From SAR324 cluster bacterium (lineage in GTDB: Bacteria > SAR324 > NAC60-12): a stretch of 62,280 bases of DNA. This document shows, in pieces, positions 394-10,167 of this stretch. The stretch covers positions 1 through 62,280 of the forward strand of contig JADFZZ010000030.1 in assembly GCA_015232315.1 (NCBI GenBank), in the 5' to 3' direction. The position numbers and the translations under genes are program-made. Position 1 is the first letter of the stretch, and every line of letters begins with the position of its first letter. A model generated the notes under the pieces. It searched no databases. It saw nothing but the letters and a program-made list of their open reading frames with translations, and was not told the origin of the DNA.

Positions 394-2613
394 TTAAAAC
401 AAATCAACATTGTCGCCAAGATCAACAGTCGCTTCTTTTTCCTGCTTTTTGGGAGTCGGGGATTGTGCGGTTTCAGCATCAGGAGTTTCCTGATCTGGTT
501 CCGTTGCGGGCGAGGCCGAATCAAATAAGTCGACATTTTCTCCGATATCCTCACTGACGGCAGAAGGCTCTGTGTCTTGAGTTTCAGTAGTTTCCGGGTT
601 CTCTGTCGAATCAAACAAATCGACATTGTCATCATCCTCCACTTTGTTGGATTGATCCTCCGAATCAAACAAATCAATATTGTCATCATCCCCGGTGCTT
701 TGCTGATCGTCATCAGAACCAAACAAAAAGACATCCTCCACATCTTCGTGTTTCATGGAATAAACATCAGAAGACGGTTTAGCTCCATTTTCAATAAGCA
801 GTGAGGAAACTTCTGCTGCCTGCGCTTTGACAGGTTTGATGTTCTGCTTTTTGCGGGCATTCCGTTGTGCGAGAAATTTTTGGTGAATTTCCCGCTGACT
901 GTGCATGGTATAGCGTTGGGCCAGTTCTTCGAGATCCTGATCCAGTTGAGAATATTCATCTTCCAGACCACCGGGAACCAGTTTACCAACCTGATCGTGA
1001 ATCACTTTAAGACTACGGATGATGGCCTGAAGCTTGGTTCGCATCACCTTGTCAAACTGGACACTCGCAATCACACTGGCAATTTCAGTTTCCAGTCTTT
1101 TGGAAATATTGGAAACTTCAACCATCGATTGCATGACGGTTTCGTCATCGTTGATAATTTTTTGAACAGCTTTGCGGGTTCGTTGATAGGTTTTGTCAGT
1201 GGTTTGAAGCTGCTGATTGAGTTTTTCCGTCAGATCACGTTCATACTGCGCAAAGCTATGCAGTATTTCATTGATCGCGATGGTTTTTTCATTGAGTTCT
1301 TTTTGGGCACTGTTGGACAGTCTGCGGATGTTTTCAGACAGCACACTCAATACTTTGCCTTCTTCACCGGCACGGATGGCTTTGATGACAGCATTCAGTG
1401 TCAGATCATCCAGATCTTCCTGGATTTCTTCAATGTTGGCCACCTGTTCAGCCACCAGCCCAACCTGTTTGCTGACAATACCGATAGATCCTACAATCCG
1501 GGTTGTAATATCTTTGCTGGAAGATAAGGTTTTCAGCAGGGTTTTGAGTTGGTTGTCTGTCACTTCAACACGTTCCGTACTGGAATTCGCCATTCGCAGA
1601 ATATGATCCGCTTCCATGCTCTGAGATGTAGCAACTTCAGAAATCACCGCAAGATGTGATGAAATCTTGTTGGCTGTCTGGTCGGTTTCCCCGAGAACAT
1701 GTTCAATCTGGATAATCTGGAGTTCTACAACCTTGCTCATCCAGTAATAAAACAACGTTTTTTCTTTTTTCCTGGCATGCAGGGCATCTCCGAGTCTGGC
1801 AACAATTTCTTCAAAAGCCTGGCTCACATGTTCCACCTGCTGACGGGAGATGTCATGATATTGCAAAGCTGTCACCACCTCGCTCATTTCCGGAGTGATT
1901 CTGGAGGCCAGTTTCTGAATGTTTTTACAATGTTTGCGGGTGTCCAGGGTCGCGTTTGAAAGTTCATTGATGATGTGCTGAACACTATGACGGCTGGAAT
2001 CCAGCTCTGAGTTGAAGGTGTTGAGGTGTCTCAGGCTTTCTTTGCCAATTTCCGTAATTTGCTGGGTGGCCTGCCTGGTGGTGGAATAAATGGCATCAAT
2101 ATACTGAATGATTTGTCGATAAAGATTTTCTACAGATTCTGCCACCGCATAAAAATCATGTTTGCCGACCCTGGCAATTTCGATTTTCATTGAAACACCA
2201 AGGAACCGTATGGAGTGGCATAATTTTTCCAGAATCTCGGTCAAGGTGGTAACGGAAGCCATTTTCACATTCAGCTCTTCCAGTCCATTCAACACATTTT
2301 CAATTCTCTCAGACGCTGATCCCACCTGATCATAAGCATGATCAAACGATTTACGGAAGGCATCAATATTCAGTCCATCCCCGCTTTCAATCATACGGAT
2401 GATGTCACTGGCACGACTGAGATTTTGAGAGCATAAACCGAAAAATTCATTGAGACGACTGCCAATGGCCAGAAACTCACTTTCAGTTTCCTTGGAGAGT
2501 GAATTCATGGCGTGAATGGCCTCTTTCAATTGACGTTCCCAGGTCCGATGTCCGCCAAGACGAAATTTCATCCAGGAAACCCGGGTTTTAATATGATGAT
2601 AAATCGCGGCCAT
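394..2613 (-). CDS. Soluble MCP-like/CheZ-like chemotaxis protein with repeated C-terminal DLF motifs
   Basis: A 739-residue protein with no membrane segment, almost all predicted helix. Residues 400-440 resemble a degenerate MCP signalling hairpin (LTLNAVIKAIRAGEEG, then ENIRRLSNSA). Residues 249-262 read ALQYHDISRQQVEH, with D254 and Q258 spaced like the catalytic Asp and Gln of the phosphatase CheZ (FQDLTGQ). The acidic tail from about 624 to 739 carries five related motifs: DVFLFGS, NIDLFDS, NVDLFDS, NVDLFDS and a terminal NVDLF. These recall the CheY-binding peptides of CheZ and FliM. It is the last gene of the che operon, 18 bp after cheA, with an ATG start. I infer a CheY-P phosphatase or docking scaffold. 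A plain MCP-type transducer is the alternative. Confidence 0.75.
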   Translation of the reverse strand: MAAIYHHIKTRVSWMKFRLGGHRTWERQLKEAIHAMNSLSKETESEFLAIGSRLNEFFGLCSQNLSRASDIIRMIESGDGLNIDAFRKSFDHAYDQVGSASERIENVLNGLEELNVKMASVTTLTEILEKLCHSIRFLGVSMKIEIARVGKHDFYAVAESVENLYRQIIQYIDAIYSTTRQATQQITEIGKESLRHLNTFNSELDSSRHSVQHIINELSNATLDTRKHCKNIQKLASRITPEMSEVVTALQYHDISRQQVEHVSQAFEEIVARLGDALHARKKEKTLFYYWMSKVVELQIIQIEHVLGETDQTANKISSHLAVISEVATSQSMEADHILRMANSSTERVEVTDNQLKTLLKTLSSSKDITTRIVGSIGIVSKQVGLVAEQVANIEEIQEDLDDLTLNAVIKAIRAGEEGKVLSVLSENIRRLSNSAQKELNEKTIAINEILHSFAQYERDLTEKLNQQLQTTDKTYQRTRKAVQKIINDDETVMQSMVEVSNISKRLETEIASVIASVQFDKVMRTKLQAIIRSLKVIHDQVGKLVPGGLEDEYSQLDQDLEELAQRYTMHSQREIHQKFLAQRNARKKQNIKPVKAQAAEVSSLLIENGAKPSSDVYSMKHEDVEDVFLFGSDDDQQSTGDDDNIDLFDSEDQSNKVEDDDNVDLFDSTENPETTETQDTEPSAVSEDIGENVDLFDSASPATEPDQETPDAETAQSPTPKKQEKEATVDLGDNVDLF

Positions 2614-2631: not shown

Positions 2632-4776
2632 TTAATGGACAAGGGAAGATTCGATTTCTTCCGCAGAATGAGTCAACTGATTGATATCCAGAATCAACGC
2701 TACCGTGCCATCCCCGAGAATGGTGGCACCTGAAATTCCTTCCACATCACGATACATTTTTCCGAGCGATTTGATCACGGTCTGGTGTTCGCCGATGACA
2801 TAATCCACAACAAATCCAACCCTGCGGTTACTGACTTCAGTGATCACAACCTGTTCAATTTCAGGGGGTTCGCCATCCAGTCCGAATTGCTCCCGCAAGC
2901 GGATATATGGTATGATTTCGTTGCGGACATAGGCCACATGTCGATTATGCGCCTTGGCCACATCTTCTCTGCTCAATTCAACACATTCTTCGACAGAAGA
3001 AAGCGGAAGCACAAAGAATTCCCTGTCAATTTTTACCAGCAGACCATCAATGATAGCCAATGTCAGCGGTAATTTCAGGGTGATGGTGGTTCCCTGTCCC
3101 ATTTTGCTCTGGATATCGATACTGCCCCGGAGCGCATTGATACTTTTTTTCACCACGTCCATGCCGACACCACGACCTGAGACACTGGTGACTTGCTTTG
3201 CGGTTGAAAAACCCGGCGCAAAGATCAGATTAAAAATCTCCGTATCCGACATTTCCGTATCATGATAGAGGAGTCCACGTTCCACAGCCTTGCTGCGAAT
3301 GGCGTTAACATTCAGGCCCGCACCATCATCCTGAATCTGAATGAGCACATGGGCGCCGGAATGCGCGGCTGTCAACAGGATTGTTCCCTCCTCAGGTTTG
3401 CCTTCAGCAATGCGGGTTTCAGGGGATTCAATACCATGATCGATAGAATTGCGGATAATGTGAACCAGTGGATCATTGAGTTGTTCAATGACAGTCTTAT
3501 CCAGTTCGGTTTCAGCACCTTCAGTTTGAATCACAACTTTTTTGCCAAGATCATTCGATAAATCACGGACCAGTCGGCGGAATTTATTGAAGGTTGAGCC
3601 AATCGGCAACATTCGGACACTCATGGTATTATCTCTGAGTTCCGTTGTCAGTCGTTCGACTTCTTCAGAAATCAGGGTGAGGTCTGAGTCACTTTTCATG
3701 TTGGCCCACTGGGTCAGTCGGGCCTGAACAGTCACCAACTCGCCAACCAGGTCAACCAGTTTGTCCAGTTTTTCGGAATCAACACGGATGCTTGAGGACG
3801 ATTCACCCTGCTGTCGTTTTTCATGGGTATCACGAACCCGGTGCTGTTCCGCCAGAGCGGATTGAATTTTATCCGGAGGCACCAGTCCTGAATCTTCCAG
3901 TATTTTACCGATGGGCTTTTGTCCGCCCAATACCTGCTGAAGATCTTCCGGTTTGAGATCTCCGCGTTCAATCAGAATTTCGCCGAGTTTTTTATAGTTA
4001 CCCTCCTGAAATGTCGCATCATCAATGACATCAATGTGAACCTCACAGACATCTTCGACAAAAATAAAAACATCCTTGATCGCATTGATGCCCCGATTGG
4101 TCGTCAACAGAATATCCCAACTCACATAACACAGTTCAGGGTCCATCTCTTTAATGGGTGGAATCAGATGCGTGTCCGCAATGATCACGGCTTCGCCAAG
4201 CTCCTGTAATTCTTTGAGCAACGGTGCCGGATTAGTACCATTGGCAAAAATGTCAGTGGAGGGCGTAAACCGTATACGGAAGGTGATGGTTTTTTCAGGA
4301 TCAGTGTCTTGCTCCAGAGCAGGCTGCTGTTTTTCCTGACGTGACTGTTGTGCTTTGGGTTTTTCTTCAGGTTGCGTTTTTTCTATGGGTGCGGAAAGCA
4401 GATTGCGAAATTCCAGGACGATTGCTTCACCAATGGACATATCCACACTTCCCGGTTTGTCATGTCCTTCAAGCAAAGCTTTGATATGATCATGCGCGGA
4501 CAATGTCAGCGCGATCAATTTGGGGGTGACCGGCAAATCGCCATTCCGGACACGGTCATAGGTGCTCTCTACTTCATGGGTGAATTCAGCGATGTCATCG
4601 TGGCCGAACATGGCGCCTGAACCTTTGATGGTGTGCATGGCACGAAACGCGCTGGCAATAATGTCCATGTTTTCCGGATCCTGTTCCAGTTCCAGCATGG
4701 CGTTTTCCAGTTCGGCCAGTCGTTCAGTCGCTTCTTCCCGATATACCTCTTTGATTCTATCAAATTCGTCACTCAT
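2632..4776 (-). CDS. cheA: Chemotaxis histidine kinase CheA
   Basis: A 714-residue CheA that autophosphorylates and passes phosphate to CheY and CheB. Domains in order: Hpt (1-105, phosphorylatable H48 in AMHTIKGSG); an acidic linker; a P2-like alpha/beta region (163-252); an inserted pair of GEIL...G...L...Q motifs (262-311) resembling MshEN modules; P3 dimerisation (about 330-395); P4 ATPase with N-box LVHIIRNSIDHGIE and G-box GRGVGMD (about 395-570); and the CheW-like P5 domain (about 570-705). The ATG start overlaps the cheY stop by 4 bp (ATGA), and AAGGTGATGGG lies just upstream as a ribosome site. The MshEN-like insert is the unusual part. Family assignment is secure. Confidence 0.97.
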   Translation of the reverse strand: MSDEFDRIKEVYREEATERLAELENAMLELEQDPENMDIIASAFRAMHTIKGSGAMFGHDDIAEFTHEVESTYDRVRNGDLPVTPKLIALTLSAHDHIKALLEGHDKPGSVDMSIGEAIVLEFRNLLSAPIEKTQPEEKPKAQQSRQEKQQPALEQDTDPEKTITFRIRFTPSTDIFANGTNPAPLLKELQELGEAVIIADTHLIPPIKEMDPELCYVSWDILLTTNRGINAIKDVFIFVEDVCEVHIDVIDDATFQEGNYKKLGEILIERGDLKPEDLQQVLGGQKPIGKILEDSGLVPPDKIQSALAEQHRVRDTHEKRQQGESSSSIRVDSEKLDKLVDLVGELVTVQARLTQWANMKSDSDLTLISEEVERLTTELRDNTMSVRMLPIGSTFNKFRRLVRDLSNDLGKKVVIQTEGAETELDKTVIEQLNDPLVHIIRNSIDHGIESPETRIAEGKPEEGTILLTAAHSGAHVLIQIQDDGAGLNVNAIRSKAVERGLLYHDTEMSDTEIFNLIFAPGFSTAKQVTSVSGRGVGMDVVKKSINALRGSIDIQSKMGQGTTITLKLPLTLAIIDGLLVKIDREFFVLPLSSVEECVELSREDVAKAHNRHVAYVRNEIIPYIRLREQFGLDGEPPEIEQVVITEVSNRRVGFVVDYVIGEHQTVIKSLGKMYRDVEGISGATILGDGTVALILDINQLTHSAEEIESSLVH

Positions 4777-5138
4777 CCCATCACCTTTTTAACCACCGCT
4801 ATGAGTTGATCCGGTTTGAAGGGTTTGACAATCCACCCTGTCGCTCCGGCACTTCGTCCTTCCTGTTTTTTAGTATCCTGGGACTCGGTCGTAAGCATGA
4901 CGATTGGTGTGAACTTGTGGGCAGGATTCGCGCGCAGTTGTTTGATAAGCTCAATCCCGTCTACATTCGGCATGTTCAGGTCCGTGATGACCATATTCAC
5001 ACTGTGTTGCTTGACCTTGTTTATCGCATCAGCACCATCTACAGCCTCAACCACCTCATATCCCGCGTTTTTCAGAGTAAATGTCACCATTTGCCGGATA
5101 CTGGGCGAATCATCGACGGTCATTATCACTTTGCCCAT
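4773..5138 (-). CDS. cheY: Chemotaxis response regulator CheY
   Basis: A 121-residue single receiver domain without an output domain. It has the acidic pocket D9-D10, the phospho-acceptor D53 (MVITDLNMP), T83/T84 and K105 (IVKPF), so the active site is complete. It should be phosphorylated by CheA and act on the motility machinery, which is not in this window. The ATG is preceded by AGAAGGAGCAAA, a good ribosome site. It is translationally coupled to cheA by a 4 bp overlap and follows cheB by 26 bp. A close relative of classical CheY; conserved operon context supports the name. Confidence 0.95.
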   Translation of the reverse strand: MGKVIMTVDDSPSIRQMVTFTLKNAGYEVVEAVDGADAINKVKQHSVNMVITDLNMPNVDGIELIKQLRANPAHKFTPIVMLTTESQDTKKQEGRSAGATGWIVKPFKPDQLIAVVKKVMG

Positions 5139-5164: not shown

Positions 5165-6232
5165 TTAATTACAAAGCTTGATCACTTCACGGGCAATGCT
5201 CTCCAACGGAAGAACCTTGTCCACACATCCTAATTTGACGGCTTCTTTCGGCATACCATAAACCACACAGGAAGCCTCATCCTGCGCGATGTTATAGCTT
5301 CCCATTTCTTTCATTTCAAGCATTCCTTTGGCGCCATCATCCCCCATTCCTGTCATAATTACACCCACCGCGTTTTTACCAGCGTATCTTGCGGCTGAGC
5401 GAAACAGGACATCCACCGAAGGACGATGCCTGGTGACCAGTGGACCATCTTTCACTTCCACATAATAACGGGCACCGCTTCGTTTGAGCAGCGTATGTTT
5501 GTTGCCCGGAGCGATCAGTGCGCGTCCCCTGACAACAGAATCGTTATTTTCCGCTTCCTTGATCGAAACCTTGCACAAACTGTCCAATCTGCGAGCGAAC
5601 GCCGCGGTAAAATTTTCGGGCATGTGTTGCACAATTACAATTCCCGGAGAATCCTCAGGAAGTGCTTCCAGAAAAACTTTCAAGGCTTCTGTTCCGCCGG
5701 TCGAGGCCCCGACGATCACGACCTTTTCAGTTGTCTGGATCATGGAATGTGTTGGCGCTCTGGCAATCACCGCATCCGCGGTCAGTTTAGGCTGTGGGGT
5801 GGAAGAGGCCCTGGATGAAATTTTCCTGGCCTTTGCCATGGCGGCACCTTTCACCACATCACAAATCATGATCTTGGCTTCTTCCAGAAATTGTTTGGTT
5901 CCCAGCCTGGGTTTGTGGATGATATCAATCGCGCCCAGTTCCAGTGCTCTTAAAGCGGTTTCAGAGCCTTTGTCGGTGAGACTGGAACACATCACCACCG
6001 GTATCGGATGTTGGCTCATCAGTTTCTGCAGGAACGTGATGCCATCCATTCTCGGCATTTCCACATCCAGTGTGATCACATCAGGAATCACGCTTTCCAG
6101 TTTATTTGCGGCCACCAATGGATCACTGGCCATTGCCACTACTTCTATCTCCGGATCCGATGAAAGAATCTGTTCCAGGGTTTGTCGGACAATGGCAGAA
6201 TCATCAATGATCATAACCTTGATTTTATTCAT
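5165..6232 (-). CDS. cheB: Protein-glutamate methylesterase/deamidase CheB
   Basis: A receiver domain (phospho-acceptor D56 in VITLDVEMP) joined to the CheB methylesterase, which removes methyl groups from receptor glutamates during adaptation. Counting from the chosen start, the catalytic triad is S177 (GASTGG), H203 (VQHMP) and D299 (TGMGDDG). An upstream start at 6328 would add 32 residues unlike CheB and overlap cheR. The ATG at 6232 begins directly with [12 protein letters not shown], as expected for a receiver, and gives 355 residues, the normal length. The gap to cheR is 40 bp and the ribosome site is weak. CheY lies downstream. Confidence 0.95.
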
Positions 6233-6272
6233 GATAACCGTCAGCTCAATGGTTGAAAATAAAGACTTCGAA

Positions 6273-7112
6273 TCACTTCTTTTTATAAATGGTAGGTGAA
6301 ACCTGCACCAGCGGAACGTCCATCCCATGCAAGGTTTCTGAGTGGCCTACAAACACATAGCCACCATCATTCAGATTGCGGCAAAACTTATGAAATATTT
6401 TTTCCTGAGTAGGTCGATCAAAATAGATAATCACATTACGGCAGAAAATAATGTCATACCGCTCTTTCAAGCCATAGTCTCCATCCATGAAATTCAAACG
6501 GCCAAACGTAATCAGACGTCGTAATTCAGGCACGACTCTCAAATTCGGTTTTGCTGGATTCTTGCTTTTCATGAAATATTTATGTTTAAAATCCAGGGGG
6601 ATCCCGACCACCCGATCAGGGGGATAAACCGCCCTGTGCGCAATTTCAAGGACTTCCATGGAAATGTCCGTTGCCAGAATTGAAAACCCTGAAATAGCTG
6701 ATTGATTTCTGGAATGGAACTCGGAAAGGACCATGGCCAGGGTATAAGGTTCTTCGCCACTTGAACATCCAGCACTCCAGACTTTCAGGCTTTTTCGTGA
6801 ACCGTGCTGTTGCACCAGGTCAGGGATTGCGGTGCGAGTCATGTAGTCAAAATGGCCGGCTTCCCTGAAAAATTCGGTTTTGTTGGTAGTGACCTTGTTA
6901 ATGAACGGGATCATTTCCTGCGCTTTCCCTTCAGGGCTGAACAGAAAATCAATGTATTCGGTGAAAGAATTCAACCCGAGCAGTCGCAGTCGTTTCTGCA
7001 GACGTGATTCCAGCAACACTTTCTTGATCGGAGGCATCTTGATGCCAAACTCCCGATGAATGAACTGGCTCAAACGCTGAAAATCATGCTCACTTAACGT
7101 GTTGTTGATCAT
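6273..7112 (-). CDS. cheR: Chemotaxis protein methyltransferase CheR
   Basis: S-adenosylmethionine-dependent methyltransferase that methylates chemoreceptor glutamates, opposing CheB. It has the all-helical N-terminal domain ([11 protein letters not shown]) and the SAM-binding motif [17 protein letters not shown]. Further matches are LATDIS and the segment [17 protein letters not shown] chose the ATG at 7112 (279 residues), 11 bp after the cheD stop. A GTG at 7130 would add six residues and overlap cheD by 7 bp, so the start is not certain. No TPR or PilZ extension is present. It sits between cheD and cheB in the operon. Confidence 0.95.
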
Positions 7113-7123
7113 AGGGGGATCTC

Positions 7124-7762
7124 TTACCACAAATCAATTTCAGTTGTTTCTTTCTCCTGTTTTTCAAGAGAACGTTTCCAGTATTGTTCATCACGTTGGA
7201 CAATCTCTGTTCCATAGGTTTTCTGGATTTTTCGAACATGCACAGAAAAATCCATGGCGGAAAAGTGTATCACGCGGCCATTGTCTCCGCCCAGATCAGC
7301 CGCGATCAGCGGAATTTTTTCTGTGGCCAGATACTCCCGAATAAAGCGCGCGTTCACTTGCCCCACGCAGAAAAAATTAGTCGAATCATTAGAATTCTGA
7401 AGCATATTACCCCCACCGAAAGCCTTGGCCTTCAGATATTCTTTGCGTGCGCCGTTTTTGATCATTTCATTGATCAGCAATTCCATGGAATGAATCCCAT
7501 ACCGACCCGCTTCGGTGATCTCAACCGGTAAGGCTTTTGAATAACGCTTATTGCTCAGCAAAAAGTGGTTCATCCCAATAATTTTCCGGACAGGATCATA
7601 CAGGCATGCGGCAACACAGGATCCCAGCAACGTGGAAATGATAATAGGCTCTTTTGTCGCGTGAAACTCCCCCGGATCAATCGTGATTTGGGGGTGTCCT
7701 CTCCAGATTCTTTGTCGCAAATATTCCTCATTTAAAAGAGTGACCTTTTTATTTTTCCGCAA
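7124..7762 (-). CDS. cheD: Chemoreceptor glutamine deamidase CheD
   Basis: CheD deamidates receptor glutamines and in some bacteria interacts with CheC. The signature is present: STLLGSCVAACLYD with the catalytic Cys, followed by GMNHFLL with the catalytic His, then AFGGGNML. The C-terminal extension is somewhat longer than in minimal CheD (212 residues here). The reading frame has no ATG before the conserved core. The first possible start is TTG at 7762, directly after an in-frame stop; another TTG at 7720 has GAGGA just upstream and may be the real start. It overlaps or abuts cheR, indicating translational coupling. Confidence 0.9.
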   Translation of the reverse strand: MRKNKKVTLLNEEYLRQRIWRGHPQITIDPGEFHATKEPIIISTLLGSCVAACLYDPVRKIIGMNHFLLSNKRYSKALPVEITEAGRYGIHSMELLINEMIKNGARKEYLKAKAFGGGNMLQNSNDSTNFFCVGQVNARFIREYLATEKIPLIAADLGGDNGRVIHFSAMDFSVHVRKIQKTYGTEIVQRDEQYWKRSLEKQEKETTEIDLW

Positions 7763-7800
7763 ACATCAGGTGCCGTCAGCCAATCGCCCGTTCACAGGTT

Positions 7801-8289
7801 TCAACCATTGAGCATTCCCAGAGATTCTGAATCAAAAATTTTATTGATATTCAGGATGATAATAAAATTATCTCCGTGCTTCCCCATGCCGTCAATAAAT
7901 TCAGTATTCAATCGGGTTCCGATTTTAGGTGCCGCTTCAATTTCAGAAAGTTCCAGAACCTCCTGAACTGAATCCGCAATCGCCCCCAGCAGCAGATGAT
8001 CGCCTTCCAGTGTGATTTCCACAATGATAATGCAGGTATTGATGGTTTTTTCTGTGCGGGTCATTCCCAGTTTCAGTTTCAGATCTACAACCGGAACCAC
8101 GCTTCCACGCAGATTGATCACACCTTTCATATAGTCGGGTGTCTGTGGAACCCGTGTCACAGACTCAAATTCCAGCACTTCCCGTATTGAACCGATATCC
8201 AGCGCGAAGATTTCATCATCCAGTGTGAACGTCAGATATTGTTCTACGTTATCCAAACTTTCATTTTTTGATTTTTCGTTATGTTCCAT
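7801..8289 (-). CDS. cheW: Chemotaxis coupling protein CheW
   Basis: A single CheW (SH3-like) domain that links chemoreceptors to CheA. Characteristic segments are YLTFTLDDEIFALDIGSIRE, then VTRVPQTPDYMKGVINLRG, then VPVVDLKLKLG, and a final FIIILNINKIF. Length is about 162 residues. Two ATG codons lie close together at 8295 and 8289. The second is placed about 7 bases after AGAGGT and is the better start. It follows the STAS gene by 100 bp and precedes cheD by 38 bp. This is the only free CheW gene in the window; CheA carries its own CheW-like domain. Confidence 0.94.
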   Translation of the reverse strand: MEHNEKSKNESLDNVEQYLTFTLDDEIFALDIGSIREVLEFESVTRVPQTPDYMKGVINLRGSVVPVVDLKLKLGMTRTEKTINTCIIIVEITLEGDHLLLGAIADSVQEVLELSEIEAAPKIGTRLNTEFIDGMGKHGDNFIIILNINKIFDSESLGMLNG

Positions 8290-8389
8290 GGGCATACCTC
8301 TGGACCGGGCCTTCTACCTTCGATGTGAATAAACAGGATTTCCATGGATAGACAAGATTTAGAAATCCAATGCAGGACAGTTGCTTCTG

Positions 8390-8698
8390 TCAACCGAAAC
8401 AAAGCCATTTTTTCTGGTTGAAACCAACGGTGTCTACCAATTGACGTAATAGCGCGGGGCAAAGGCCATCCAGTTGGACGGTTTTTCCTGATTTGGCCGC
8501 TGTTTGAGACAAAGAATAGAGCAATTGTACAAAAGATAAATCAGCCTCGGTCAAGCCACTTAAATCCAGTTTGAGAAGCTGAACTTTATCCAGTGCCTCG
8601 ACCAAGCCTGTTTTCAACTCTTTGGCATAACCAATCGTTGAGTGGCCCTGGATGCGCAGTTTTCCTGTCTGATTATCTTCTGAAATAAATTCTAACAT
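8390..8698 (-). CDS. STAS-domain protein
   Basis: A 102-residue stand-alone STAS domain (anti-sigma-factor antagonist fold). The strand-helix core is LLKLDLSGLTEADLSFVQLL, where the family usually has DLS...D-S-G at the phosphorylation loop. Here the sequence is EADLSF, so a serine (in DLS) is present at about the right place. The ATG is preceded by AAAGGAAACC. It lies 15 bp after the GGDEF gene and upstream of cheW, inside the che operon. Small STAS proteins occur in some chemotaxis operons; their partner kinase here is not identified. An RsbW-like ATPase (22711-25299) and a PP2C phosphatase (58525-59745) elsewhere in the window could be related to it. Confidence 0.82.
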   Translation of the reverse strand: MLEFISEDNQTGKLRIQGHSTIGYAKELKTGLVEALDKVQLLKLDLSGLTEADLSFVQLLYSLSQTAAKSGKTVQLDGLCPALLRQLVDTVGFNQKKWLCFG

Positions 8699-8712
8699 GG
8701 TTTCCTTTGTTA

Positions 8713-10167
8713 TTATTCTTGCGGATGTAACGGTTCAGCGGCTACCACAATATTGCGTCCAGATTCCTTTCCGCGATAGAGGCAATCATCCGCTTTTTTC
8801 AGGAGCATTTCAACATCTGTCGCATCATCCGGATAGGTCGCAACCCCTATTGTTACCGTGAGATTTCCTGTGGGTTGCATTTCCTGGTGAGGTATGACTT
8901 CATCCTCAATCGCTTTTCTGAGTTTTTCAGCGACCTTGATCGCCGCGTCTTTATTGCAATTGGGAAGGATTACGACAAATTCCTCGCCACCAAATCTCGC
9001 GGCAAGATCCCCGTTGCGAACATTCTGGGCAAACACAATTGCGACGGTGGCCAACACCACATCGCCCATCTGGTGTCCATGGGTGTCATTGTAAAATTTG
9101 AAATTATCCACATCTGAAATGATAAAGGAAAACGGTTGTTTGGTGTCAGGATACAAAGTCAGCAGGGCACTGACGAATTCATCCATTCTGCGGCGATTCG
9201 CCAATCCGGTCAACCTGTCTGTATCGGCCGCCCGTTCAACCCGGTCCAGTTCACGATGCTTGTAATACCAGATCCTGAATTTGGTCATGGCATGTTTAAG
9301 ATCAAACACCGAGTAGGGTTTTCCCAGAAATTCGTCTATTTCCCGTTCTACCAGCAACAACCGGTTGAGCGAGTTGTTGCAGTAATTACTGATGATAAAA
9401 ATCGGTGCCCCATGAACTTTCAGGGCATTGATCAGGTTTTCAACAGCCGCCAGTTCTGATTCCATCATGTGAGGATACTGGACATCGACAATCAGGAGGT
9501 CAAACCTGTGGTCCAGCGGACTATCCAGATATTCCTGCGGATCCGCATAGATGACAGGTTCACATTCGCTCCATTCCGAATAAAGCGCACCCTGGATGAT
9601 CATACGATCTGATTCATTGACATCAATGATCGCGACTTTGGGTTTGTCAGACGAATGGACTCTCTGATTTTTGCGAATCATCGACTGTGCGGTGGTGAGC
9701 TTCAATTTTTCAGCGAGAATATGCGCGAACAAAAAATAAAAGACCGGCACCAGTTCGTCATCATTCTGAACCTTGAATACTTCATGTGGAAACGAAACCA
9801 GTTCACAATCGCTCTGCGCGATCACATCGGCAGATCTTGGTCCCGGTGAAATGACCGACATCTCACCCGCAATGTCTCCCGGACGTTCCAGACGCAGGAT
9901 GAATTTTTCCTGGCTCATCACATCCAGTGTTCCTTCGACCAGAATAAACATTTCCGGAGGCATGGTGTCGCCATCCTTGATCAAGACTTCATCTTTTTTC
10001 AAATGCAGGAGATAGCCTTGTTGAAGAACCTTTCGCAGAACAAGTTTTCCCGCCTTCTTAAAATACCTGCTTTCCTGGAGAATATTCAGGATCACTTCCA
10101 GGCGTGGATGAGTCACCAACAGTTTCGGATTATTTTTATCTGGTACTGATAAAGGGGTACGAAGCAT
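8713..10167 (-). CDS. cNMP-binding / receiver / GGDEF diguanylate cyclase
   Basis: A 484-residue three-domain enzyme expected to make cyclic di-GMP. Residues about 30-160 are a CRP-like cyclic-nucleotide domain with the phosphate cassette GEMSVISPGPRSA, keeping R111. Residues 177-297 form a receiver (acceptor D228 in LLIVDVQYP, K283) with an incomplete acidic pocket (IIDVNES). Residues 315-475 are the GGDEF domain, with DRLTGLANRR, active site GGEEF (393-397) and an inhibitory I-site RNGD (384-387) at the standard spacing. The cyclase therefore looks active and product-inhibited. The ATG has AGGAGA upstream. It is the promoter-proximal gene of the che operon, which suggests coupling of second-messenger output to chemotaxis. 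Confidence 0.94.
   Translation of the reverse strand: MLRTPLSVPDKNNPKLLVTHPRLEVILNILQESRYFKKAGKLVLRKVLQQGYLLHLKKDEVLIKDGDTMPPEMFILVEGTLDVMSQEKFILRLERPGDIAGEMSVISPGPRSADVIAQSDCELVSFPHEVFKVQNDDELVPVFYFLFAHILAEKLKLTTAQSMIRKNQRVHSSDKPKVAIIDVNESDRMIIQGALYSEWSECEPVIYADPQEYLDSPLDHRFDLLIVDVQYPHMMESELAAVENLINALKVHGAPIFIISNYCNNSLNRLLLVEREIDEFLGKPYSVFDLKHAMTKFRIWYYKHRELDRVERAADTDRLTGLANRRRMDEFVSALLTLYPDTKQPFSFIISDVDNFKFYNDTHGHQMGDVVLATVAIVFAQNVRNGDLAARFGGEEFVVILPNCNKDAAIKVAEKLRKAIEDEVIPHQEMQPTGNLTVTIGVATYPDDATDVEMLLKKADDCLYRGKESGRNIVVAAEPLHPQE

Follow-up and report, generated by a model that had tools for sequence, protein, structure and literature searches.

The last gene of a chemotaxis operon from a SAR324-cluster bacterium encodes, on balance probably, a CheZ-like phosphatase for CheY-P, with a chemoreceptor signalling domain as its ancestor. 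The wider proposal—that it represents a new response-regulator phosphatase family, independent of CheZ and of CheC/CheX, spread over six phyla or more and derived from a duplicated chemoreceptor hairpin that bears a D/Q site in only one of its halves, its docking peptide having multiplied in certain lineages—we would put, from the sequences compared here, at about even strength. In other words, bacterial chemosensory signals may have an off-switch that evolved independently.

The gene, its operon and its relatives

The window, by which we mean the whole stretch of 62,280 nucleotides that was analysed, is contig 30 of a SAR324-cluster genome of 5.25 Mb in 88 contigs. The gene lies on the minus strand, a detail absent from the earlier sequence-only reading of this DNA, and the operon runs in the order GGDEF, STAS, CheW, CheD, CheR, CheB, CheY, CheA and, as its last member, the gene for the 739-aa protein.

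394-2613, minus strand: gene under study, 739 aa from an ATG start; MCP-derived, with a CheZ-like motif and an acidic tail
2632-4776, minus strand: CheA, residues 263-311 of which form an MshE-N-like c-di-GMP motif
4773-5138, minus strand: cognate CheY, with the D12/D13/D57/T87/K109 equivalents retained and N59/E89 as in E. coli CheY
5165-8295, minus strand: CheB, CheR, CheD and CheW of the same operon (Pfam scan)
8390-10167, minus strand: STAS protein and cNMP-binding/receiver-like/GGDEF protein at the operon head (Pfam scan)

The operon's first protein (window 8713-10167) combines cyclic-nucleotide-binding, degenerate receiver and GGDEF domains. The motif in CheA (NF053729, E 6.8e-10, above cut-off) sits between a P2-like region and P3; it is also above cut-off in the CheA of L116, L117, L118 and L119 and slightly below it in L039, L040 and L044. 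It is not mentioned in a survey of CheA architectures (PMC10782961), and it may connect c-di-GMP with such CheA kinases.

Our searches brought up 61 relatives. Going by the record names, they come from SAR324 and no fewer than five further phyla; the names read SAR324, Thermodesulfovibrio, Nitrospirota, Ignavibacteriales, Deferribacteres, Desulfuromonas, Kryptoniota, Bacteroidetes and Bryobacteraceae. Related genomes (e.g., G268 and G312) are counted separately, and the counts are thus of sequences and not of independent events. In a sample of 345 genomes from the phylum to which the Desulfuromonas record belongs, 40 carry the gene; in the sample for a Bacteroidetes record's phylum, the figure is 6 of 395. 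A literature search returned no description of the family, with earlier notice in subscription papers a possibility; this is apparently a widespread and undescribed family of doubled chemoreceptor-domain proteins.

The family gene usually adjoins CheY and CheA, and often a STAS gene too. The neighbouring CheYs are 59-78% identical to the window's CheY, and all cognate CheYs retain the catalytic residues and the equivalents of N59/E89 of E. coli CheY. That pair accompanies slow self-dephosphorylation, and a phosphatase would therefore be useful to these CheYs. Two exceptional members are instructive. L037 has lost three things together, its D/Q pair, its tail and its che neighbours (there is no che gene in the 14-kb locus); in L039, both MCP tips are deleted while D/Q, the YTM segment (see below) and the tail (DNVELW) are retained, a pattern that speaks for D/Q and the tail as the core of the function.

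Other oddities are recorded here for their own sake. Two complete family genes lie about 8 kb apart on contig 45 of G312 (L129), and the stretch around them holds two sets of STAS, CheY, CheA, CheW and CheR genes. In a Deferribacteres homologue (L043 8890-10773), a single in-frame TAA separates the two halves; sequencing error, pseudogene and true two-gene version are all candidates, and the gene was left unaltered and excluded from the counts. Long N-terminal extensions in L077, L082 and L100 have the appearance of frame artefacts from GC-rich DNA, and among the relatives there was no natural fusion of a family protein with a receiver domain.

Is the protein, then, what these bacteria use in place of CheZ? 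The sequence-only reading had it replacing CheZ in its che operon. The window genome has 3 CheZ genes and 8 CheX matches (7 above cut-off), so the protein is not the genome's CheZ replacement; it serves, at most, its own operon in CheZ's stead, and in G402 (locus L116 6931-7422) a CheX gene stands directly upstream of the relative, in the same cluster. Across the 44 genomes with a family gene, CheZ is above cut-off in 22, CheX in 35 and CheC in 20, and FliM is found in 39, so most hosts, but not all, are flagellated. We dropped the argument from phosphatase-free genomes because a single genome, G186, is clearly without CheZ, CheX and CheC. A separate curiosity is a 695-aa protein (L033 4056-6143, contig 4 of G000) with a canonical CheZ domain at its end and a long N-terminal region that, by eye, is histidine-kinase ATPase-like.

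A duplicated chemoreceptor hairpin with a CheZ-like helix

MCPsignal (PF00015) is the sole Pfam match above cut-off in the 739-aa protein (E 2.3e-14; 54 bits against a cut-off of 34.6; residues 371-518), and no Pfam sensor domain was found in it. The protein had been read as soluble and helical, rightly so: in the AlphaFold2 model, a monomer prediction, the body is all-helical with pLDDT mostly 80-95 (helices of half 1 at residues 83-149 and 153-277), and the maximum 19-residue hydropathy of 1.2 indicates no membrane helix. The parts of the body are as follows.

1768-2541, minus strand: half 1, residues 25-282; first MCP-like helical hairpin, bearing D254/Q258
934-1767, minus strand: half 2, residues 283-560; second MCP-like hairpin, D/Q motif position degenerate
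2122-2199, minus strand: tip 1, residues ~139-164; degenerate MCP tip SMKIEIARVGKHDFYAVAESV, E145 91% conserved
1315-1413, minus strand: tip 2, residues ~401-433; degenerate MCP tip LTLNAVIKAIRAGEEGKVLSVLS, N407 invariant
1810-1878, minus strand: CheZ-like helix, residues 246-268; D254, Q258, invariant Q251 and near-invariant H262
1024-1080, minus strand: equivalent helix of half 2, residues 512-530, QFDKVMRTK; D/Q unconserved

When the family was split at residue 282 and the halves were compared (hhalign), they aligned in register over 237 columns (probability 98.9, E 1e-17), tip 1 with tip 2 and QYHDISRQQ with QFDKVMRTK; against a canonical MCP profile, the halves matched at the tip with probabilities of 97.8 (half 1) and 99.2 (half 2). 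These alignments show an MCP-type hairpin tandemly duplicated in a single chain, a predicted pseudo-dimer with two degenerate tips, and the simplest reading is a chemoreceptor-type dimer fused in one chain that is asymmetric, with D/Q retained in half 1 only. The sequence-only reading had seen a single degenerate tip; the MCP homology is genuine, and the tips number two. The MCP tip core (ending ...GFAVVA) is degenerate in both halves and absent from L039; in tip 2 its core E is replaced by K. Tip 1 lies 110-113 residues from D254 in the measured members, save in L039 (88, tips deleted) and L100 (122).

D254 and Q258 lie in VVTALQYHDISRQQVEHVSQAFEEI. They are where the sequence-only reading had placed them, at the CheZ catalytic spacing, and they stand within an extended CheZ signature, [AS]xx[FY][QH]D[ILM][TS]xQ. 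The pair (DXXXQ) is present in 60 of the 61 members having that region. Our first scan had selected for QYHDI, so we quote conservation from profile searches: with members fetched by that pattern omitted, 51 of 52 keep D254 and Q258, although relatives are merely 17-30% identical overall to the window protein. Conservation in homologues, on which the sequence-only reading had staked itself, bears out this part of it. Q251 is invariant and H262 nearly so across the family and, judging from spacing, Q251, D254, Q258 and H262 would share one helix face. The core motif occurs in 0 of 28 canonical MCPs. The extended signature is matched by 40 of 61 members; the window's ORFs, 26,537 aa in all, contain it a single time, at the D254/Q258 site. 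The published CheZ motif is AXXFQ-DXXXQ (PMC7750401), and four members have it exactly.

Resemblance is one thing and descent another. The window protein gives no match to the Pfam CheZ model (PF04344), and its relatives all fall below the 30.7-bit cut-off (best 23.1 bits among the matches listed). Weak matches to that model do occur in 13 of 43 members (best about 8e-5) versus 0 of 10 canonical MCPs, and in the six members checked the match sets an Asp at about profile position 127-133, where D143 of E. coli CheZ falls. Profile comparison (hhalign) to CheZ returned probabilities of 27-58% in the wrong register, which is no homology, and a PDB fold search with both AlphaFold2 models gave no CheZ among the 50 best folds for either; the matches were mostly generic long helical bundles, those of the full-length model including MCPs, and they decide little. 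On the profile comparison we rejected CheZ homology, taking the weak in-register Pfam matches as motif similarity and not as proof of descent. By membership, as these profiles judge it, the family is not CheZ; its mechanism is probably CheZ-like, because members and not MCPs touch the CheZ model and the Asp falls at the D143 position. The label “MCP/CheZ-like hybrid,” given to the protein earlier, overstated CheZ ancestry where profile comparison gives MCP ancestry. Coiled-coil sequences yield spurious profile matches, and for that reason we relied on position-specific conservation, co-loss and synteny.

The C-terminal tail and the competing explanations

Beyond the body lie a short conserved segment and a long acidic tail.

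883-912, minus strand: YTM-x-[SE]-ERE-x-H segment, residues 568-577; Y568, T569 and M570 93% conserved, R574 and H577 88%
397-792, minus strand: disordered acidic tail, residues 608-739; pLDDT <50
721-735, minus strand: tail motif 1, DVFLF, residues 627-631, divergent
667-681, minus strand: tail motif 2, NIDLF, residues 645-649
613-627, minus strand: tail motif 3, NVDLF, residues 663-667
523-537, minus strand: tail motif 4, NVDLF, residues 693-697
397-411, minus strand: tail motif 5, NVDLF-COOH, residues 735-739, the conserved C-terminal copy

The YTM segment, immediately before the tail, is about 90% conserved across phyla and is possibly a second docking element; we know of no match to it elsewhere, nor of a CheZ counterpart to it or to Q251 and H262. 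Downstream of it the window protein has a net charge of -32. All five DLF-type motifs reported between residues 624 and 739 were located, the last at the very C-terminus, with the reservation that the first is degenerate; four DLF were never obtained in 20,000 shuffles of the last 120 residues (mean 0.06). What the family keeps is the end of the chain, a GDNVELF-like peptide, [VIL][DEL][LF][FW], in 58 of 59 complete members (58 of 62 sequences, the other four being L037 and three incomplete at contig ends). More than one motif is found only in the window protein (four good and one degenerate), L036 (two) and L079 (two). The conservation sought for the tail thus attaches to its C-terminal motif, and the tandem array, once taken as the key feature, is not a family trait: a single C-terminal motif is, by this comparison, the ancestral state, its multiplication is local and multivalent docking would accordingly be a local elaboration. 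The conserved peptide follows a disordered tail, with spacing unlike that of CheZ's CheY-binding peptide. One CheZ of the SAR324 genome ends SQDNVDDLLASLGF and its FliM begins MGAVLSQQEVDALL; the family tail resembles that CheZ C-terminus (DNVDDLLASLGF) and the FliM N-terminus (QQEVDALL), and is one residue short of the CheZ/FliM VDxLL spacing between the acidic and hydrophobic parts.

What else might such a protein do? It could be a noncatalytic scaffold or sink, its tail peptides gathering CheY-P or holding CheY near CheA and its D/Q helix structural or meant for another partner. The conserved tail motif, raised to five copies here and to two in L036 and L079, and the existence of other phosphatases in the genome speak for this, but a structural role fails to explain 98% retention of D/Q, with the spacing of CheZ and flanks resembling CheZ's, when the corresponding helix in half 2 varies freely, and we think it unlikely. 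The sequence-only reading had left the choice between a multivalent CheY sink and a phosphatase; the near-invariant D/Q pair and C-terminal motif and the linkage to cognate CheY and CheA sustain its core, and multivalency survives as a local matter. Less likely still is a cytoplasmic pseudo-receptor that uses its MCP tips to enter the chemoreceptor array and that regulates CheA, its tail recruiting a che protein. Both halves are MCP-derived, tip residues such as N407 and E145 are retained and the operons usually contain CheA and CheW; the tips are nonetheless degenerate, down to that K in tip 2, and L039 lacks both, yet keeps D/Q, YTM and tail.

The target might also be a different operon partner (CheB-P, the STAS protein or CheD). 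A STAS gene adjoins many family genes, but no STAS neighbour was detected in L042, L048 and L049 and CheY is the most constant neighbour, so that we regard this as very unlikely. Then there is the chain's end itself, which by eye resembles NWETF, the pentapeptide of Tar/Tsr that tethers CheR/CheB: with MCP ancestry, a C-terminal aromatic residue and a flexible tail that in most members runs for about 24-60 residues past the YTM segment, NVELF could be a dock for adaptation enzymes. CheR pentapeptides, however, require an aromatic residue at position 2 (PMC7390727), and here that position is V, I or L in 58 of 58, never aromatic as xZxxZ demands; internal copies, which have no free C-terminus, do not fit; and other MCPs of the SAR324 genome bear true CheR-type ends, EFERF and TFERY. 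On position 2 and those ends we rejected the tether, which we find scarcely credible.

A possible mechanism and its place among known systems

A CheY-P phosphatase of chemoreceptor origin, the reading we prefer, would work as follows. Duplication of an MCP-type hairpin made a chain of two halves, of which the first alone keeps a CheZ-like Asp/Gln pair. The C-terminal NV[DE]LF-type peptide would dock the cognate CheY on its alpha4-beta5-alpha5 face, by analogy with the CheZ and FliM peptides, after which the D/Q pair could reach into CheY's active site, where D254 would pair with CheY's conserved Lys and Q258 would orient a water, and loss of the phosphoryl group would thereby be accelerated. 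There would be one active site per chain, versus two per CheZ dimer, and the roughly five docking peptides of the SAR324 species would raise the local concentration of CheY.

If this is right, a CheZ-type active site arose by convergent evolution from a receptor domain, and many gene annotations would need correcting, databases labelling the family just “MCP.” It would also supply a signal-termination step for operons without a CheZ of their own, a need that Geobacter exemplifies, where chemotaxis was reported without CheZ and as requiring a CheZ-independent mechanism (PMC2577667).

Compared with CheZ (PF04344), the new family shares the Asp-x3-Gln of a long helix together with its flanking signature, a helical hairpin bundle, a flexible linker, an acidic-hydrophobic C-terminal peptide and a CheY encoded alongside; it differs in that homology is undetectable and derivation is from the MCP signalling domain, in having two hairpins per chain with one D/Q site and in a tail that ends VELF where CheZ's ends VDxLLxxxGF. 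With CheC, CheX and FliY it would share a proposed role, the removal of CheY-P; those phosphatases have an alpha/beta fold unrelated to the family's and other catalytic residues, and separate CheX-like genes are present alongside the family in most genomes. To the MCP signalling domain (PF00015) both halves align, hairpin and tip, but the new protein is a tandem duplicate with degenerate tips and no visible sensor, HAMP or membrane region, and the family's conserved D/Q helix and tail are absent from the MCPs examined. Its architecture also has a parallel in a human product: artificial single-chain chemoreceptors (PMC4692393) likewise join two receptor hairpins in one chain. Those were engineered receptors, whereas in this family the fusion is natural and, being shared across phyla, old.
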